From: a virus
Strand: one strand, 5' to 3'
Virus record (IMG/VR): IMGVR_UViG_3300046755_000050
Location: 1-52,968 of that record
DNA length: 52,968 nucleotides
Below are positions 3,752 through 48,107 of this stretch, piece by piece. The position numbers and the translations under genes were made by a program. The notes beneath the pieces were generated by a model. That model saw nothing but the letters and a program-made list of their open reading frames with translations. It had not been told where the DNA came from and made no database searches. Numbering within the stretch: position 1 is the stretch's first letter; each line of letters starts with the position of its first letter.

Positions 3752-5266
3752 ATGGCTGAATTATTTGGATTCAAAATAGAACGATTAGGTAGTAAAGAAA
3801 CTGATCCAAGACAAAATATAGTACCACCTCAAGCAGACGATGGCACACAAGTTGTTCCTGCTGGAGGTTTTTTTGCGTCTTATGGCGGATTTGAACAAGG
3901 TACAAGAAACGAATTAGATTTAATAAGAAGATACAGAGAAGTTGCTCTACATCCTGAATGTGATAGTGCTGTTGAGGATATAGTATCAGAGTCAATTGTA
4001 TCTAATGAGAATCAACAATCAGTTCAACTTGATTTATCAAAAGTTGAATATACAGACGCAATCAAAAAGAAAATAAGAGAATCATTTAAAGATGTTTTAA
4101 ATCTTTTAAACTTTGATATTAAAGGGCATGACATCTTTAGAAGATGGTATGTTGATGGAAGAGTTTACTTTCATAAAATTATAGACAAAGATTCTCCAAG
4201 ATTGGGTATAACAGAATTAAGATATATTGATCCTAGAAAGATCAAAAAAATAAGAGAAGTAAGAAAACAAAGAACAGATGGTGTTCCAAGTTCATTTGCA
4301 TTTGAAAATAAGTTCCAAGAGTATTATATCTTTAACGAAAAAGGAATACATCCAACTTCAACATCTAACGCAGGTGGATTGAGAATTGCCACAGATGCCA
4401 TTGCATATTGTCCATCTGGATTAGTAGATCAATCACACAATCAAGTTTTATCTTATTTACATAAAGCAATTAAACCAGTTAATCAATTAAGAATGATTGA
4501 AGACGCTGTTGTTATTTACAGAATTGCAAGAGCACCTGAAAGAAGAATATTTTATATCGATGTAGGTAACTTACCTAAAATCAAGGCCGAACAATATCTA
4601 AGAGATGTTATGGCAAGATATAGAAATAAAATGGTCTATGATGCTTCTACTGGTGAAATCAGAGATGATAGAAATCAGATGAGTATGTTAGAAGATTTTT
4701 GGTTACCTCGTAGAGAAGGTGGTAGAGGAACTGAAATTACTACATTACCTGGTGGTCAAAACTTAGGACAAATAGAAGATATAGAATATTTCCAAAAGAA
4801 ATTATATAGATCATTAAATGTTCCAATTAGTAGATTAGAAAGTGGATCAGGATTCAATTTAGGAAGAGCTGCTGAAATTAGTAGAGATGAAGTTAAGTTT
4901 ACTAAATTCATTGGCAGACTAAGAAAAAAATTCTGTATGTTATTCCATGATTTATTAAAAACACAATTAGTTCTAAAAGGTGTTATTGCACCTGAAGAAT
5001 GGGATGTGTTACAAGGTAACATTACATACAATTTCTTACAAGATGGATATTTTGCTGAACTAAAAAATTCAGAAATGTTAGCTGCTAGATTAAATCTAGT
5101 TAGAGATGTAGAACAATATGTTGGTAAATATTTTTCACATGAATATATTAGAACTAAGATATTAAAACAAAACGAACTAGAACAAGCAGAAATAGATCAA
5201 CAAATTAAATCTGAGGCACCAGAACAACCACAACAAGAAGTGCCACAGGATAATAAAGGAGAATAA
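3752..5266 (+). CDS. gp20: Portal vertex protein gp20
   Basis: Dodecameric portal that nucleates prohead assembly and forms the DNA channel; 504 residues against 524 in T4. Recognisable blocks include the acidic segment LHPECDSAVEDIVSE, RYIDPRKIKKIREV, the conserved YRIARAPERRIFYIDVGN, and FQKKLYRSLNVPISRLES near residues 350-370. The C-terminus is Gln/Glu-rich and probably disordered. It begins behind AAGGAG with 6-nt spacing and has its own late promoter. The next gene starts 2 nt after its stop, so the prohead genes form one unit. Confidence 0.96.
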   Translation: MAELFGFKIERLGSKETDPRQNIVPPQADDGTQVVPAGGFFASYGGFEQGTRNELDLIRRYREVALHPECDSAVEDIVSESIVSNENQQSVQLDLSKVEYTDAIKKKIRESFKDVLNLLNFDIKGHDIFRRWYVDGRVYFHKIIDKDSPRLGITELRYIDPRKIKKIREVRKQRTDGVPSSFAFENKFQEYYIFNEKGIHPTSTSNAGGLRIATDAIAYCPSGLVDQSHNQVLSYLHKAIKPVNQLRMIEDAVVIYRIARAPERRIFYIDVGNLPKIKAEQYLRDVMARYRNKMVYDASTGEIRDDRNQMSMLEDFWLPRREGGRGTEITTLPGGQNLGQIEDIEYFQKKLYRSLNVPISRLESGSGFNLGRAAEISRDEVKFTKFIGRLRKKFCMLFHDLLKTQLVLKGVIAPEEWDVLQGNITYNFLQDGYFAELKNSEMLAARLNLVRDVEQYVGKYFSHEYIRTKILKQNELEQAEIDQQIKSEAPEQPQQEVPQDNKGE

Positions 5267-5268
5267 TT

Positions 5269-5493
5269 ATGAGTAAAGATGATATTAAAAAATTTGTAAA
5301 TTCAGTCGTAGATAACGATAACATACAAGCACAAAAAGACTTTGCAGCTGCTGTATCAGATAAGATCGGATCAGCAATCGATGCCCAAAAACAAGAAGTC
5401 GGTAGATCAATGTTTACAGGACAACAAGGTGTTGATGCTCCAGAAGCAAATGTTTTTAGTGGAGGTAATATAGAAGGATCAACAGATGGTTAA
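5269..5493 (+). CDS. Small prohead core-type protein (gp67-like by position)
   Basis: 74 residues, short and acidic. It sits immediately downstream of the portal gene where T4 carries gene 67, a small internal prohead core protein processed by gp21. The central pattern, F-x3-V-x-DKI-x3-IDAQKQEVGRSMF, is reminiscent of T4-like core proteins, and the Gly/Asp-rich tail looks disordered. The last codons overlap the next gene by 8 nt. The assignment rests mainly on position and size; sequence similarity to gp67 is weak by eye. Confidence 0.55.
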   Translation: MSKDDIKKFVNSVVDNDNIQAQKDFAAAVSDKIGSAIDAQKQEVGRSMFTGQQGVDAPEANVFSGGNIEGSTDG

Positions 5494-5743
5494 GACGTTC
5501 AGTAAATTTAAAGATGATATTATAACTGAATCAAATGACTATAAGAGAACTAGGCAATATAACAAATTGAATCCTAGATTGAAACAAGCAGTAGATATGG
5601 TGTTTAAAGCCGCTGATAAAAGTGGTGACGTTATTTCAAACTTTGAAAAAAATGTTAATACTGCTGCTAAAAAATTCAATGTTAAAGTAGATGACTTAAT
5701 GAATTATTTTGATAAAGAAACACTAACCATTTTAAGGAGATAG
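5486..5743 (+). CDS. Small prohead protein with capsid-targeting-like N-terminus (gp68 position)
   Basis: 85 residues, basic and helical. It lies where T4 has gene 68, another prohead core component. The N-terminus MVKTFSKFKDDIITES resembles the short peptides that start many proteins at 40549-51514, and IITE|S fits the gp21 cleavage pattern (hydrophobic-x-E). The rest (LKQAVDMVFKAADKSGDVI, then FNVKVDDLMNYFDKE) has no enzymatic motif. It overlaps the preceding gene by 8 nt, and the following ATG begins 1 nt after its stop. A role inside the prohead is inferred from context. Confidence 0.6.
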   Translation: MVKTFSKFKDDIITESNDYKRTRQYNKLNPRLKQAVDMVFKAADKSGDVISNFEKNVNTAAKKFNVKVDDLMNYFDKETLTILRR

Positions 5744-5744
5744 A

Positions 5745-6920
5745 ATGGCGTTCACAAGAGTTCCTGGATCGGGAGTACCACCTGCTGTAGCTTATTATAA
5801 TGATAGCGATAGTTTTACTATTGCAGGTTCAAATTTAAATCCTGGTACTACTCAACGTACTTTTAATGCTTTACTTTTTAATCCTGATGGAACAAAAATG
5901 TACACATTAGGAACTGATCAAGGATATGGTGCAGATAAAGACCTCTTTCAATACACATTGTCAACACCCTTTGATGTATCGACTGCTTCAGTTTCAGTTA
6001 ATGATTATATTGAAGTTGGAGAATGGTCCAGAGGTAACATGGATGTGAGATTTAATAATGACGGAACAAAACTTTTTGTTCTTTTTGATGCAATGAATCA
6101 AAATCAGAGAAGTAGAATTTATCAATACACTTTAAGTGTTGCTTACGATATTACCAGCACTGTAACATCAGGTGGATCTTTAGTAGTAGGGGATCAGTAT
6201 GATCAATTTTCAGCAATTCTATTTAACCAAGATGGTACAAAGATGTTTGCTAGTAGGTATGGGTACATATACAAATATACTTTAAATACTCCTTTTGATG
6301 TTACAACTGTTACAAATACAGACGGAAGTTTTTATCTACCCACCACAATCACTGGTATGCAATTTAATAATGATGGTACAAAGTTATTTACAACTTATAA
6401 TACATCAACAATTGGTACTAAAGCAACAATAACAGAATGGGCATTGTCAACTGCTTATGATCCCACAACTGCAATACAACCTGCAACTGCTACCTTTGAA
6501 ACTGATGAAACTACAAATTCTAATGGTGAAGTTCCTCTTCAATTTATGACTTTTAACAATACTGGAACAAAATTCTTTAGTTTTAACGGTACTAATGGAA
6601 ATATTAATGGTGGATTAGCAAAAATTAAAGAATGGAATCTAGCTTCAGCTTTTAGTATGTCAAGCTCTTCTTCAGGATCATCAGGATCAGTTTCTGGTCC
6701 TTGGGAATACGATGATACTGCTACAGAATCAGATACTTATCCTGGATCAACTAGAGGTGCAAATATAACTATTTCTGGTGGTGTAAAAACGTATATAAAA
6801 CCAGTGTCAGGAACAGCGGAAGAAGTTTATATTAGTACAAGAAAACTTGGTGAAACTAAAAATCGTGGCGAAGTATCTAAAACTTTTTATGATGCTCAAA
6901 ACGCTAAAGGAACACCATAA
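5745..6920 (+). CDS. Beta-propeller-like repeat protein inserted in the prohead cassette
   Basis: 391 residues with at least five repeats of the form F-N-x-D-G-T-K-hydrophobic-aromatic. The best copies begin near residues 45, 103, 160, 207 and 269, each followed by an (I/L)YQYTLS- or WALS-type strand and a T-A-Y/F-D turn. This is the look of WD/YncE-type propeller blades found in some phage virion proteins. A Ser/Gly linker near 305-320 leads to a separate C-terminal region. No signal peptide or membrane segment is visible. It interrupts the usual 20-67-68-21 order and is co-oriented with it, so a capsid-surface or virion role is likely but unproven. Confidence 0.6.
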   Translation: MAFTRVPGSGVPPAVAYYNDSDSFTIAGSNLNPGTTQRTFNALLFNPDGTKMYTLGTDQGYGADKDLFQYTLSTPFDVSTASVSVNDYIEVGEWSRGNMDVRFNNDGTKLFVLFDAMNQNQRSRIYQYTLSVAYDITSTVTSGGSLVVGDQYDQFSAILFNQDGTKMFASRYGYIYKYTLNTPFDVTTVTNTDGSFYLPTTITGMQFNNDGTKLFTTYNTSTIGTKATITEWALSTAYDPTTAIQPATATFETDETTNSNGEVPLQFMTFNNTGTKFFSFNGTNGNINGGLAKIKEWNLASAFSMSSSSSGSSGSVSGPWEYDDTATESDTYPGSTRGANITISGGVKTYIKPVSGTAEEVYISTRKLGETKNRGEVSKTFYDAQNAKGTP

Positions 6921-6955
6921 AATGTACTTTTTTTGCATTTTAAAGATAAAAAATG

Positions 6956-6963
6956 TATAAATA
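6956..6963 (+). promoter_or_regulatory. Late promoter upstream of gene 21
   Basis: Perfect TATAAATA. Predicted +1 is about 6969, which leaves a 23-nt leader with an AGGAT-type ribosome site before the ATG at 6992. Confidence 0.8.
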
Positions 6964-6991
6964 GTATTAAGAGAAAAGAGAGATAGGATAC

Positions 6992-7639
6992 ATGAAACTT
7001 ATTACCGAAGAAATAGAAAACGCCGAGTACATTATTGAAGAATCAGGTAACGGCAAAAAAAATTACTCTATAAAGGGTGTCTTCATGCAAGCGGACATCA
7101 AAAATAAAAACGGTAGAGTTTATCCTAGAGAGACTCTTCAAAAAGAAATCGCTCGATATACAAGAGAGTTTATCGACAAAAGTAGAGCATTTGGCGAACT
7201 AGGTCATCCTGACGGTCCCACTGTCAACCTAGAAAGAGTATCGCACATGATCAAATCTTTAACTCCAGAAGGAAATAACTTTATAGGAGAGGCGAAAGTC
7301 TTAGATACCCCATATGGAAAAATTGTGAAGTCTTTAATTGATGAGGGTGCAAAACTAGGAGTTTCATCTCGTGGAATGGGAACATTAAAATCATCTAATG
7401 GAATGAATGTTGTCAATGACGATTTTTATCTTGCTACAGCAGCTGATATAGTTGCAGACCCCAGCGCTCCAGACGCTTTCGTAGAAGGCATTATGGAAGG
7501 AAAAGAATGGGTATGGAATAATGGAATATTGAAAGAGCAAGAGATTAAAAAATTAAAATTACAGGCAGAGAGTAGAGAGAGAATATTAAGAGCAGATAAA
7601 AATGCTCAAGTATTTGAATCATTTCTTAAAAAACTGTAA
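6992..7639 (+). CDS. gp21: Prohead core protease gp21
   Basis: Serine protease that matures the prohead by cutting scaffold, capsid and internal proteins after hydrophobic-x-E. It has 215 residues against 212 in T4. Features visible: NKNGRVYPRETL near 38-49, the catalytic-type His in GELGHPDG (H72), GVSSRGMG carrying the Ser (S125/S126), and a downstream acidic segment ADIVADPSAPDAF (D156). This arrangement matches the phage prohead protease fold. Its specificity matters here because gp23 and the capsid-targeted proteins downstream carry matching cleavage sites. Confidence 0.95.
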   Translation: MKLITEEIENAEYIIEESGNGKKNYSIKGVFMQADIKNKNGRVYPRETLQKEIARYTREFIDKSRAFGELGHPDGPTVNLERVSHMIKSLTPEGNNFIGEAKVLDTPYGKIVKSLIDEGAKLGVSSRGMGTLKSSNGMNVVNDDFYLATAADIVADPSAPDAFVEGIMEGKEWVWNNGILKEQEIKKLKLQAESRERILRADKNAQVFESFLKKL

Positions 7640-7642
7640 TTT

Positions 7643-7650
7643 TATAAATA
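7643..7650 (+). promoter_or_regulatory. Late promoter upstream of gene 22
   Basis: Perfect TATAAATA just after the gene 21 stop. Predicted +1 is near 7656, directly at the base of the hairpin at 7657-7679. Confidence 0.8.
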
Positions 7651-7656
7651 ATAACT

Positions 7657-7695
7657 GACTCATTCAATTAGAGTGAGTCTATTATTGCAATAATA
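7657..7695 (+). other. 5'-terminal mRNA hairpin and palindrome in the gene 22 leader
   Basis: GACTCATT (7657-7664) pairs with AGTGAGTC (7672-7679) over 8 bp with one G-U pair, placing a stem at the extreme 5' end of the late transcript. It is followed by the perfect 16-nt palindrome TATTATTGCAATAATA (7680-7695). 5'-terminal stems can protect mRNAs from decay; whether this one does is inference. Confidence 0.5.
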
Positions 7696-7723
7696 TAAAG
7701 TTAAAATAGAGGAGATAAAACCA

Positions 7724-9238
7724 ATGGAAAACGGTAAAAAAGAGATCAATGCTCAAGCTGATCTACCTAAAAAACATGCCGCTCCAGCTGAAGCACCTAA
7801 ATCATTAGCTGCAACTGTTCAACAAGTAATGACAAAAGCAATTACTTCACCAACAGATGCTAAACCAGATTTTGCACAAGGCGTTAAACCTGTATCAGGT
7901 GACGCACAACAAAAAAGTGCAGGTGCTGCTGATGCTATGAAGTCACTTCAAGCACAAGCGGATGCTGAAATCAAAAAAGAAACTTCTTACGAGTCTGAAG
8001 ACAAAGAGAAAAAACACGAAGGCAAAGAAGAAGTTAAAGAAACAGAAGCTGAAACTAAAGACAAAGAAGACGTTAAAAAAGAAGAAAAAGAGGAGAAAAA
8101 AGAAGAATTATCTCCTGCTCAGAAAAAACTTCCTGACGCTTTACAAAAGGCAATCGCTAAAAAAGACGAATCTGCTGACGAGAAAAAAGATGTAAAAGAA
8201 GAAGAAGAAAAAGAGAAAAAAGAAGAAGACGAAAAGAAAAAAGAAGTTTCAGAATCTGAAGAAGATAAAGAAAAAAAAGAAGAAGACGAAAAGAAAAAAG
8301 ATGAAATCAAAGAAGAAGATGAGAAAAAAGTAATTCAGGCTGCTAAAGAATATATGAAAGACTCAAGTTGTTCATATAAAGAAGCTGCTGAGAAATACGG
8401 TTGCTCTGAATCTGAAGTTAAAAAACAAGTAGAGTCTATGGAAAAAGAAATGGACGAAGCAGATGAAAAAGAAGTTAAAAAAGAAACTGCACAGGACAAA
8501 GTAAAAGACATGGATATGAAAGAAGATGTAGCTGCTCTAACTGATGGTGAAGGCCTTTCGGAAGAGTTCAAACAAAAAGCTGCAACTATTTTCGAATCTG
8601 CTGTTAAAGCAAAACTTGTAGATGAAATCGAAAAATTAGAAGCAGACTATGATAAAAAAGTCGAAAAGAAAAAAGACGAAGTCAAAGAAGAAATCGTTGA
8701 CAAAGTAGATGCTTATCTAAATTACGTTGTTGAATCTTGGATGAAAGACAACGAACTGGCTATCGAAAAAGGACTTAGAAATGAAATTACTGAGGAATTT
8801 ATCGGTGGACTTAAAAACCTATTTGAAACTCATTACATCAACGTACCGCAAGAGAAGTATGATGTATTAGAGAATCAATCTGCTGAAATTAATTCATTAA
8901 AAGATAAACTTAATGAATCAATTGAAAAGAACGTTGAGTTAAATCAGAAAATAAATGAATTTGCTAGAGAAGACATCATTAGTGATGTTGCTTCTGATTT
9001 AGCAGAAACTGAATCTGAAAAACTTAAAGGTTTAGCAGAAAGTATTGAGTATAAAGACGCTGGTAGTTTTAGAAAAAGTGTTGAGACATTAAAAAACTCA
9101 TACTACCCTAAAGCAAAAGTGAAAGATACTGAATCTAATGTCGTAGCAGAAAACAATCAGACTGTTGATTTATCTGAATCAATGGCTGCCTACACTGCTG
9201 CTATTAGTAAACAAGGAAAGAATCCTTACAAAAAGTAA
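7724..9238 (+). CDS. gp22: Prohead scaffold protein gp22, enlarged
   Basis: Internal scaffold around which gp23 assembles, later degraded by gp21. At 504 residues it is nearly twice T4 gp22 (269). The C-terminal part is recognisable scaffold: GLSEEFKQKAATIFESAV near 280, then long helices and LKNSYYPKAKVK near the end. The extra length is an Ala/Pro-rich N-terminus and a Lys/Glu-rich stretch at about 85-200 that includes a 19-residue tandem repeat. Between them and the core lies a compact segment, about 203-240, resembling a helix-turn-helix (SYKEAAEKYGCSESEVKK). The gene is placed between 21 and 23 as in T4. Confidence 0.9.
   Translation: MENGKKEINAQADLPKKHAAPAEAPKSLAATVQQVMTKAITSPTDAKPDFAQGVKPVSGDAQQKSAGAADAMKSLQAQADAEIKKETSYESEDKEKKHEGKEEVKETEAETKDKEDVKKEEKEEKKEELSPAQKKLPDALQKAIAKKDESADEKKDVKEEEEKEKKEEDEKKKEVSESEEDKEKKEEDEKKKDEIKEEDEKKVIQAAKEYMKDSSCSYKEAAEKYGCSESEVKKQVESMEKEMDEADEKEVKKETAQDKVKDMDMKEDVAALTDGEGLSEEFKQKAATIFESAVKAKLVDEIEKLEADYDKKVEKKKDEVKEEIVDKVDAYLNYVVESWMKDNELAIEKGLRNEITEEFIGGLKNLFETHYINVPQEKYDVLENQSAEINSLKDKLNESIEKNVELNQKINEFAREDIISDVASDLAETESEKLKGLAESIEYKDAGSFRKSVETLKNSYYPKAKVKDTESNVVAENNQTVDLSESMAAYTAAISKQGKNPYKK
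8216..8301 (+). repeat. Direct repeat within gene 22 encoding KKEEDEKKK
   Basis: Two near-identical purine-rich copies of about 28 nt are offset by 57 nt (19 codons), both encoding KKEEDEKKK. The copies lie inside the Lys/Glu-rich region, so slippage or recombination-driven expansion is plausible. Confidence 0.7.
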
Positions 9239-46555: not shown

Positions 46556-47551
46556 ATGGATAAAAAATATTTTGAAACAAAACAGGGCAGCTTAGAAGAT
46601 GTATCCACAAAGATCGCTAAAGAGCAGCCAACAATAACAAAACCAGAAACAAAAGTAAAACTAACAGCAGAAAAAAATTACTTTGAGAATAAACCAGGTT
46701 CGATTTCAGACATTGCTGCTAAGATTGTAAGTGAAGCAATTGATTCAGTAAACAAAGATGCTGTTAAAAAAGATTTTACAGATAGAAAAGATAAAGACCT
46801 TGATAACGATGGTGATACAGATTCATCAGACGAATACTTGCATAAAAAAAGACAGGCAATTTCTAAAAATATGAAAGAAAGTAAAGCTGATTTCCTTCGT
46901 TTAAACTTTGCAAATAACCAAACTGTTAAAAAAGCAGAAAAATGGTTATATAACAATATGGGTCATTCTAATCCAGGATATACAAGTATAATTGCTGATA
47001 AAAATTCTATTGAGTTTAAAGATATGAATGATGCTGATAGTGTTATGACAAAACTCAAAAGAGCAGGATTCAATTTTAAAGTAGATATGAGAGAAAGCAA
47101 AGCATACATGTTATCTTATGGCAAAAAAGGTGAAAAGGCAAAATTCTTTTATGGTGATACTATGTCAGTTATTCAAAACAAAGCACAAGAATTAAGAAAA
47201 CAAGGTATCGTTGTTGATAAAATGGGTAGAACTGAACCAACTCATAAGTTAAGACAAACTATTGAGGCAGTAAATCCAGATGATGCTGGTGAAAAAATAA
47301 ATGATAAGAAAAAAGAACTTGCTAAAAAAGGTGAGAAGTCTGTTATTAAACCTTTACAAGAATTAGAAAAAGAGTGTCCTCAATGTCAAGGTAAAGGATG
47401 TGACCATTGTGATGACAAAGGAACTCATACTGTAAAAGAAAATAAAAAGACATTTAAAGAGATTCGAATACAGGCTGGTGAAGGTCCAAAAACTGATACA
47501 GGTAAAAAAACTGCTGTAATAGATACTGAACCATCAACAAAACCAATATAA
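46556..47551 (+). CDS. Unknown protein with YFE repeats, EF-hand-like loop and Cys knuckle
   Basis: 331 residues, charged and probably modular. Two copies of YFExKxGS(L/I)xD(V/I)x(T/A)KI lie at 5-20 and 42-57. An EF-hand/dockerin-like Asp-rich loop DLDNDGDTDSSDE sits at 81-93. A Cys-rich segment CPQCQGKGCDHC near 273-285 resembles a DnaJ zinc finger repeat. No enzyme motif. It starts behind AGGAGA and ends the first tagged-gene run before an early promoter. Likely a virion-associated accessory protein. Confidence 0.55.
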   Translation: MDKKYFETKQGSLEDVSTKIAKEQPTITKPETKVKLTAEKNYFENKPGSISDIAAKIVSEAIDSVNKDAVKKDFTDRKDKDLDNDGDTDSSDEYLHKKRQAISKNMKESKADFLRLNFANNQTVKKAEKWLYNNMGHSNPGYTSIIADKNSIEFKDMNDADSVMTKLKRAGFNFKVDMRESKAYMLSYGKKGEKAKFFYGDTMSVIQNKAQELRKQGIVVDKMGRTEPTHKLRQTIEAVNPDDAGEKINDKKKELAKKGEKSVIKPLQELEKECPQCQGKGCDHCDDKGTHTVKENKKTFKEIRIQAGEGPKTDTGKKTAVIDTEPSTKPI

Positions 47552-47571
47552 AAAGTGCGTCAGAATAGCGC

Positions 47572-47600
47572 TTGACAAACACGCTCATATATGATAGTAT
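47572..47600 (+). promoter_or_regulatory. Sigma70-type promoter of the HAD nucleotidase gene
   Basis: TTGACA, 17 bp, TAGTAT. Predicted +1 is 47607, the A of the second in-frame ATG. Confidence 0.75.
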
Positions 47601-47606
47601 ATGAGT

Positions 47607-48107
47607 ATGAAAACAAACACTATGAATAAAATAATATATTGTGATATGGATGGTGTTCTTGCAGACTTTAAAAAAGGTGCTGAAAGAGCAACTAAAATGT
47701 CAATCAAACAATGGATGAATATCCCTTCTTCAAAAGAGAAGTGGAGACCTATTATAGAAATGCCTAATTTCTGGTCTTCTCTTCCTTGGATGCCAGGAGG
47801 GCAAAAATTATGGAGTTATATCTCTAAATTTAATCCACACATACTAAGTGCATATGTTGAGGAAGAATTTGACCCTAACTGTATACCAGGCAAAAGAGAA
47901 TGGTTAAGAAGAAATACAGGATTGTCAAGTCCTCAAAGAGTTAATTTAGTTAAAAGAAAAGAAAAAAAACAATTTTCTAAAAAAAATGCTATCCTAATAG
48001 ATGATTATCAAAAAAACGTTGATGAATTTACTAGATCAGGTGGTATTGGTATCTATCATACAGACACATCAAAAACAATCTCCCAACTCAAAAGACTAGG
48101 ATTTTAA
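47607..48107 (+). CDS. HAD-family 5'(3')-deoxyribonucleotidase-like protein
   Basis: 166 residues from 47607 (168 from ATG 47601). HAD motif I is YCDMDGVLADF, and the late segment ILIDDYQKNVDEFTRSGG is the motif IV region of 5' nucleotidases of the NT5C type. It probably dephosphorylates deoxynucleotides. Three candidate starts exist: 47601 is upstream of predicted +1; 47607 sits exactly at +1; 47622 gives the family-like MNKIIYCDMDG. The first 15 nt after 47607 (ATGAAAACAAACACT) are nearly the same as at 20103. Confidence 0.85.
   Translation: MKTNTMNKIIYCDMDGVLADFKKGAERATKMSIKQWMNIPSSKEKWRPIIEMPNFWSSLPWMPGGQKLWSYISKFNPHILSAYVEEEFDPNCIPGKREWLRRNTGLSSPQRVNLVKRKEKKQFSKKNAILIDDYQKNVDEFTRSGGIGIYHTDTSKTISQLKRLGF

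Follow-up and report, generated by a model that had tools for sequence, protein, structure and literature searches.

A predicted five-bladed beta-propeller set within a small putative anchor protein encoded in the head cassette of a T4-like virus of the pelagiphage kind

Introduction

The marine virus record IMGVR_UViG_3300046755_000050, 52,968 bases in length and hereafter called the window, has a T4-like gene order of the pelagiphage kind, and among its head genes it encodes a 391-aa protein with internal repeats. The question raised by this locus is of what parts such a protein is made, and what it may do at a site devoted to head assembly. An earlier note on this DNA had described a propeller-like gene placed between genes 68 and 21. 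Here, the ORF, its structural model, its relatives on other viral contigs and its rate of change were analysed together, and the possible places of the protein on the particle were weighed.

Results

In the window the genes run in the order sheath, tube, portal, prohead-core ORF, 85-aa ORF, 391-aa ORF, gene 21, gene 22 and gene 23, the first three being named from the matching place in Pelagibacter phage Mosig. From the portal gene to gene 21, the features of this slot lie on the + strand. The portal gene (3752 to 5266), an ORF at the place of Mosig's annotated portal gene, forms the upstream border of the slot, and it is followed by a gene 67-like prohead core gene of 74 aa (5269 to 5493; phrog_1064 prohead, E 1.4e-5). 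The next ORF, of 85 aa (5486 to 5743), gave no match in PHROG and Pfam searches and is called gene 68-like by position, with homologues at the equivalent place in relatives. Downstream, gene 21 (6992 to 7639) is clearly recognised as the prohead protease (PHROG head maturation protease, E 2.3e-82; Pfam Peptidase_S77, E 1.3e-33). The placement between genes 68 and 21 is thus secured by PHROG and Pfam on the gene 21 side and by position only on the gene 68 side. In the gene 22 scaffold, a long Glu/Lys-rich stretch (7962 to 8310) has further frames open on both strands.

The ORF itself (5745 to 6920) comprises 391 codons from ATG to TAA, its position and length agreeing with the earlier note, and encodes a small anchor protein with a predicted beta-propeller set in; AAGGAG stands a few bases upstream of its ATG, and one base separates it from the 85-aa ORF. 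It is a real gene and not a chance frame, because relatives are encoded at 79 viral-contig loci and because dN/dS is below 1 among the three distinct alleles (the window, L007 and L008). An Rfam search of 5200 to 7700 gave no match, promoter-like sites were not above shuffles, and terminator-like sites numbered 5 against a mean of 1.0, with none on the + strand between 5745 and 6991. The repeats of the protein begin at residues 45, 103, 160, 207 and 270; four of them hold an exact FNxDGTK and the remaining one reads FNNTGTK, so that the number of blades given earlier stands and the motif needs one exception.

Both ends of the protein belong to another small protein, and a stand-alone propeller gene was rejected on this ground. 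Residues 320-385 are 62% identical over 66 aa (tblastn) to part of Mosig_00041 (QOI69005.1, Pelagibacter phage Mosig EXVC030M), a 78-aa protein annotated as hypothetical that occupies the equivalent slot between a gene 68-like ORF and gene 21; it has a similar N-terminus but, unlike the window protein, carries no inserted domain. At the other end, residues 1-9, MAFTRVPGS (5745 to 5771), align with the start of the anchor family (consensus MAWVTVPGS), six of the nine being common to family members, and the alignment resumes at WEYDDT. Residues 1-9 and 319-391 (the latter encoded by 6699 to 6917 and assigned to the Mosig_00041 family by sequence identity and alignment) are therefore two halves of a 78-residue protein, which stands alone in Mosig and in dozens of related contigs. 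Similarity to the Mosig_00041 family thus extends across the 78 aa, and the window protein shares with Mosig_00041 the position between the gene 68-like ORF and gene 21, a position not general to every anchor-family member.

The N-terminal match is short, and its background was measured. Identities with the anchor family over the nine residues number 6 in the window, 7 in L007, 6 in L278 and 8 in L385; among 2280 distinct ORFs of the relatives' loci (family members and propeller proteins excluded), compared with 67 distinct family members, none shares six or more of the nine residues with any member, and nine reach five. This match, together with the alignment resuming at WEYDDT, places the propeller after residue 9 of the 78-aa protein, and at the level of sequence comparison the nested architecture, a propeller inside an anchor, is clear. 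In an AF2 model of the 78-aa anchor alone (54 sequences, mean pLDDT 86), strands 3-5 and 13-16 flank the insertion point, which is accordingly a predicted hairpin loop; inside the full-length model the anchor is modelled poorly (pLDDT blocks of about 37-71). No solved fold like the anchor was found (best E in Foldseek 3.2; none of 124 aligned chains reached Z 2), a result that shows neither a new fold nor its absence.

For the inserted part, the full-length AF2 model (built from 60 sequences; mean pLDDT 76; 149 of 391 residues at 90 or above) predicts a five-bladed beta-propeller of five four-stranded blades at residues about 20-318. Together with a Ser/Gly linker at residues about 307-318, it is encoded by 5802 to 6698, as delimited from the model, VIA-align and alignments. 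DSSP assigns 19 strands in five groups, the twentieth coming from the N-terminus (24-25); this candidate ring-closing strand has two residues and lies in a block with pLDDT of about 69. Foldseek returned 646 chains at E 0.001 or better, many of them propellers, with WD40-type chains in the top rows (TM about 0.35-0.4). In VIA-align the first match was the mannobiose phosphorylase 7fip (Z 18.1, 264 residues aligned, 3.4 A), and family-43 entries followed at Z about 15-16. We take 7fip to belong to GH130, and 7fip and the family-43 glycosidase chains to be five-bladed. The earlier description as propeller-like agrees with this predicted model.

The closest solved folds to the model are accordingly those of sugar-active enzymes, which raises the possibility that the propeller is itself an enzyme, such as a glycosidase or depolymerase, displayed on the particle and cutting surface sugars. 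The fold matches speak for this, but identity to 7fip and to the family-43 chains (e.g. 3k1u) is 5-9%, and a Pfam search of the 391-aa protein, including the WD40, PD40 and lactonase models, found no family at E up to 1. In addition, the five-bladed receptor-binding propeller of the Staphylococcus phage phi11 was likewise compared to carbohydrate-degrading enzymes (PMC4901313), and for this reason the fold alone does not point to catalysis. We consider an enzymatic role improbable.

Matches to known families are scarce for the window protein and more telling for its relatives. A known Pfam family or a clear PHROG was rejected for the window protein, whose two PHROG matches are weak (0.016 and 0.028), and a sequence search of solved structures gave one match at E 3.9, judged to be chance. 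Nine proteins from the relatives' loci were scanned, six of which carry a propeller. Three of these six, one of them weakly, match tail fibre PHROGs (L013, 1e-7; L040, 2e-29; L047, 9e-4), and the other three have no informative PHROG: L010 matches only a family of unknown function, and L038 and L026 gave no match in the PHROG scan. Among the scanned neighbour proteins, one matches a tape measure and two an unknown family. One of the predicted viral relatives bears the name baseplate wedge subunit.

The propeller is one of several domains carried by the anchor. Among the best matches kept, and leaving the window aside, five contigs encode propeller proteins; over the stretch that they cover, three of these contigs do not differ from the window. 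A tail-fibre-type domain was found on seven contigs, two of them cut before the N-terminus, and a laminin-G-like type on four, one of them cut, again among the best matches kept. The tail-fibre-type domain sits at the insertion point of the propeller, with the anchor N-terminus kept. For example, L269, L272, L278 and L279 start with MAFTNVVGS, continue with a domain of about 190 aa and then resume at GSDGIWEFDDAAT. In L272 this domain matches a tail-protein PHROG (7e-25) and shares about 30% identity with tail or tail fibre proteins, for instance the one from RcapMu; Pfam gave no family match, and the name "jelly roll", a guess by eye, was dropped. In L385 the same domain follows MAYVDIVGS, a start identical at eight of nine residues to that of L202, the closest stand-alone anchor, which is a baseplate-side member. 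A second domain, 36% identical, follows anchor residue 62 in L385, after which the anchor ends normally; this was seen in one contig. In L090, L235, L238 and L241 a further domain lies C-terminal to the anchor, and in L090 and L235, where it was scanned, it matches Pfam Laminin_G_3 at E 0.003, below the cut-off of that family. A 56%-identical copy of the laminin-G-like domain is fused in L318 to a protein like an 83-aa one of these loci, with no detected similarity to the anchor. The occurrence of other binding-type domains at this point in some relatives gives the small protein the look of a natural display stand. Because the propeller and tail-fibre-type forms share MAFT at the start, a single insertion followed by a swap of inserts is possible, and independent entry of the two domains is not claimed.

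The head slot was then compared among relatives. Of the best 80 relatives of gene 21, 63 hold both portal and gene 21, and the gap between these genes is 300 bases or less in 12 of the 63, with a median of 1294 and 1726 in the window; at least three non-overlapping ORFs of 70 aa or more lie in it in 40 of the 63. The cyanophages S-RIM2 and S-CREM1 do have a compact gap. The earlier statements that the prohead cassette is normally compact and that the gene interrupts it do not hold for much of this group, in which the slot is frequently filled, and insertion into a normally compact cassette was rejected. The anchor is not general in this slot: it was found by E-value in 3 of these 63 relatives, which carry portal and gene 21 on one contig. 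Among 80 loci fetched with the 85-aa ORF, it is present in 10 (7 bare, 3 with propeller), plus L008, where the propeller is cut before the anchor, and the 83-aa protein adjoins the 85-aa ORF in 51.

Other occupants of the slot were also seen. Mosig carries two extra small genes before gene 21 (Mosig_00040 and Mosig_00039), no counterpart of which turned up in the window. Proteins resembling Mosig_00039 (130 aa; L001:6537-6929) stand at the head slot in 39 of the 63 relatives; they gave no family match and are possibly decoration proteins. A 344-aa protein with SBP_bac_3 (Pfam, E 7e-15 and 3e-14) occupies the slot before gene 21 in L097:3965-4999 and L098:898-1932. Nitroreductase-family genes, which are metabolic-type genes in the head cassette, lie directly upstream of gene 21 in L136:1856-2518, L139:2859-3533 and L159:5295-5987 (E 5e-13 to 4e-9). 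Just upstream of the portal, an open frame cut by the contig end (L008:2-370) resembles by eye the tail of a homing endonuclease.

The neighbourhood of the window ORF, which adjoins a core gene, the gene 21 protease and the gene 22 scaffold, would also suit an internal prohead-core or packaged protein, the added domains being cargo ejected into the cell. The T4 internal proteins are the comparison case, and the cleavage motif of T4 gene 21 is [LI]xE. One LGE in the anchor part of the window protein (residue 368) fits this motif, but Mosig's anchor has none, and in the window protein the two remaining matches, at 229 and 294, fall in propeller strands. Moreover, the added domains resemble in kind those of tail adhesins, and the anchor also occurs beside baseplate genes. 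An internal location therefore seems highly improbable to us.

The genomic homes of the anchor gene bear directly on its place on the particle. Small-protein scans gave 225, 329 and 386 related stretches, the best 80 of each being kept, and 150 anchor-bearing entries were collected, including some contigs fetched twice (104 after removal of identical neighbourhoods). Among these best matches, 125 of the 150 entries lie by genes 68/21: 107 stand-alone (76 distinct), 7 with the propeller, 7 with the tail-fibre-type domain and 4 with the laminin-G-like domain. Eleven lie by the baseplate genes gp25/gp6. Of the remaining 14, 12 neighbour phrog_11617 and a deoxyribonucleotidase gene, L198 adjoins gene 67 and portal, and L236 is unplaced. 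In the three anchor scans alone (n=140, duplicates included), 115 entries are head-side, 11 baseplate-side, 12 by the deoxyribonucleotidase gene and 2 elsewhere; these scans hold best matches by likeness to Mosig or the window, which favours the head-side place. In L190:5001-5234, for example, a 78-aa anchor gene lies between gp25 and gp6, downstream of a PAAR gene, and L183:4159-4389 shows the third home, beside the deoxyribonucleotidase gene. A gene at 47601 to 48107 of the window resembles this deoxyribonucleotidase gene by eye, with no anchor copy at that place (47551 to 47601). Each of 20 records searched holds one anchor copy, and 14 have a gene 21 match; in the other six, all fragments with the anchor by baseplate or deoxyribonucleotidase genes or unplaced, neither gene 21 nor gene 23 was matched. 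Because the anchor also sits by baseplate and deoxyribonucleotidase genes, its place on the particle does not follow from gene position.

These baseplate-side copies, together with the tail-type relatives of the carried domains, would suit an adhesin of the tail or baseplate that happens to be encoded in the head cassette, its anchor docking on the baseplate or tail. In pelagimyophages, carbohydrate-binding-type proteins in the structural operon have been placed by their authors with the tail fibre or baseplate (PMC7029224). Against this, 115 of the 140 entries lie by genes 68/21, although among best matches whose ranking favours the head side, and the model has no long helix or stem before the propeller. 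We regard a tail or baseplate location as rather unlikely, though well worth keeping in mind.

The history of the locus was traced with a gene 21 protein tree built by a quick method from 126 distinct rows, reduced to 114 by leaving out 12 without an anchor and with little upstream sequence. The tree joins the window and L007 within a clade of 16 rows (98 at both nodes), which consists of 6 bare forms, 5 without an anchor, 2 with the tail-fibre-type domain, 1 laminin-G-like and 2 with the propeller; another laminin-G-like row, L238, falls in a different clade. Gene 21 is 99% identical between L088 (tail-fibre-type domain) and L284 (bare), and 97% between L090 (laminin-G-like) and L088. L284 and L278 are 97% identical over 264 bases ending just inside the gene start, and then about 74-80% identical outside the insert. 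From these alignments, the process looks like exchange of whole alleles, not fresh insertion.

Comparison of the window with L007 gave identities of 95-99% for portal, gp67, gp68, gp22 and gp23, 94% for the tube, 92% for gene 21, 89% for the anchor and 61% for the propeller. By the Nei-Gojobori method (own script), dN/dS for this pair is 0.76 in the propeller, 0.25 in the anchor, 0.42 in gene 21, 0.17 in gp22, 0.05 in gp23 and 0.03 in portal; for the propeller it is 0.64 between the window and L008 and 0.71 between L007 and L008. Among close relatives, the propeller thus stands at about 0.7 against 0-0.42 in its neighbours. Positive selection is not claimed, as dN/dS is below 1, and import of diverged alleles may explain part of the rate difference, because propeller dS between the window and L007 (0.37) exceeds that of all nine neighbour genes (0.04-0.29). 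At sequence level, these comparisons demonstrate different alleles at one site and a difference in rate.

The changes are concentrated on one face of the predicted propeller. With strand borders set by us from the model (with a few residues added to blade 1 strand d and to the closing strand), L007 differs at 54 of 79 residues in the b-c and d-a (top) loops versus 19 of 68 in the a-b and c-d (bottom) loops (Fisher 1.2e-6), and L008 at 44 of 79 versus 16 of 68 (9.7e-5). In 39 distant homologues the top-face loops are also the least conserved loops (identity 0.12-0.18 versus 0.45-0.68). The face bias may therefore be a general property of the fold, and on these alignments it appears to be partly a family trait.

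Discussion

Taken together, we lean slightly towards reading the 391-aa protein as a two-part virion-surface adhesin, an anchor with a propeller, most likely carried on the outside of the head. Its presence on the virion, its location on the head and its ligand are all inferred. First, the 78-residue anchor (residues 1-9 and 319-391) would attach the protein to the particle, most probably at the head exterior; we infer this location because the gene belongs to the head-assembly cassette, with core genes on one side and gene 21 on the other, and the baseplate-side copies of the anchor weaken it. Second, the propeller would hang from the first hairpin loop of the anchor, joined by a short N-terminal stretch and the Ser/Gly linker, and its face of b-c and d-a loops may bind a glycan or other surface molecule of a host that would be SAR11-like, by kinship with Mosig. 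This variable face may be exchanged or altered quickly. The anchor would then serve as a natural display stand, with phages of the same clade carrying bare, tail-fibre-type or C-terminal laminin-G-like forms.

The earlier suggestion of a head decoration or a cell-binding protein recruited to the capsid was a fair guess, and the recruiting part can now be named. Cell binding agrees with the five-bladed model, with the tail-fibre matches of some relatives, with the fast-evolving face and with the stand-alone anchor in the head cassette of relatives; the fold, relatives and rates of the propeller are consistent with a cell-binding domain. Head decoration is weakened by the anchor genes beside gp25/gp6.

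Known systems offer partial parallels. T4 Hoc and other adhesive head decorations would be alike in function, if the window protein is so placed, in combining a capsid-binding part with outer domains; such decorations with Ig-like domains are known, and their outer domains aid attachment with little effect on capsid stability (PMC7602432). However, Hoc is a chain of Ig-like domains whereas the window protein is a predicted propeller in a loop with a putative head location, and no Hoc or Ig-like match was found in it (Pfam E up to 1, PHROGs E up to 0.1). phi11 Gp45 likewise has a five-bladed propeller in a host-recognition protein, with a propeller cavity that could hold GlcNAc, but it is described as a baseplate trimer with a helical stem and tower (PMC4901313), unlike the window protein, which has a small head-cassette anchor and whose model has no helical stem; up to residue 336, no helix in this model reaches four residues. 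The mannobiose phosphorylase and family-43 glycosidases are close in fold and remote in sequence. In pelagimyophages, the structural operon has been reported to encode proteins with binding-type domains (PMC7029224). Among the titles and abstract openings searched, no report was found of this family, of its architecture or of a small protein with alternative adhesin-type domains at the head slot.

More broadly, we put forward, as a tentative proposal, that the 78-residue family of pelagiphage-like T4 relatives is a natural head display scaffold. Its C-terminus and two of its hairpin loops, one following residue 9 and one following residue 62 (the latter seen in a single contig), would take whole adhesin domains of the tail-fibre kind (propeller, tail-fibre-type and laminin-G-like). 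Recombination would swap the loaded alleles with little change to the remainder of the head cassette, so that binding to hosts or particles could be adjusted at the capsid as well as at the tail. Here, several unlike adhesin-type domains share the same attachment points on one small protein, and close phages differ in the domain. If the protein is on the head, the small protein could be a display scaffold accepting large domains, and the role of head-borne adhesins in marine phages would become testable with natural alleles.
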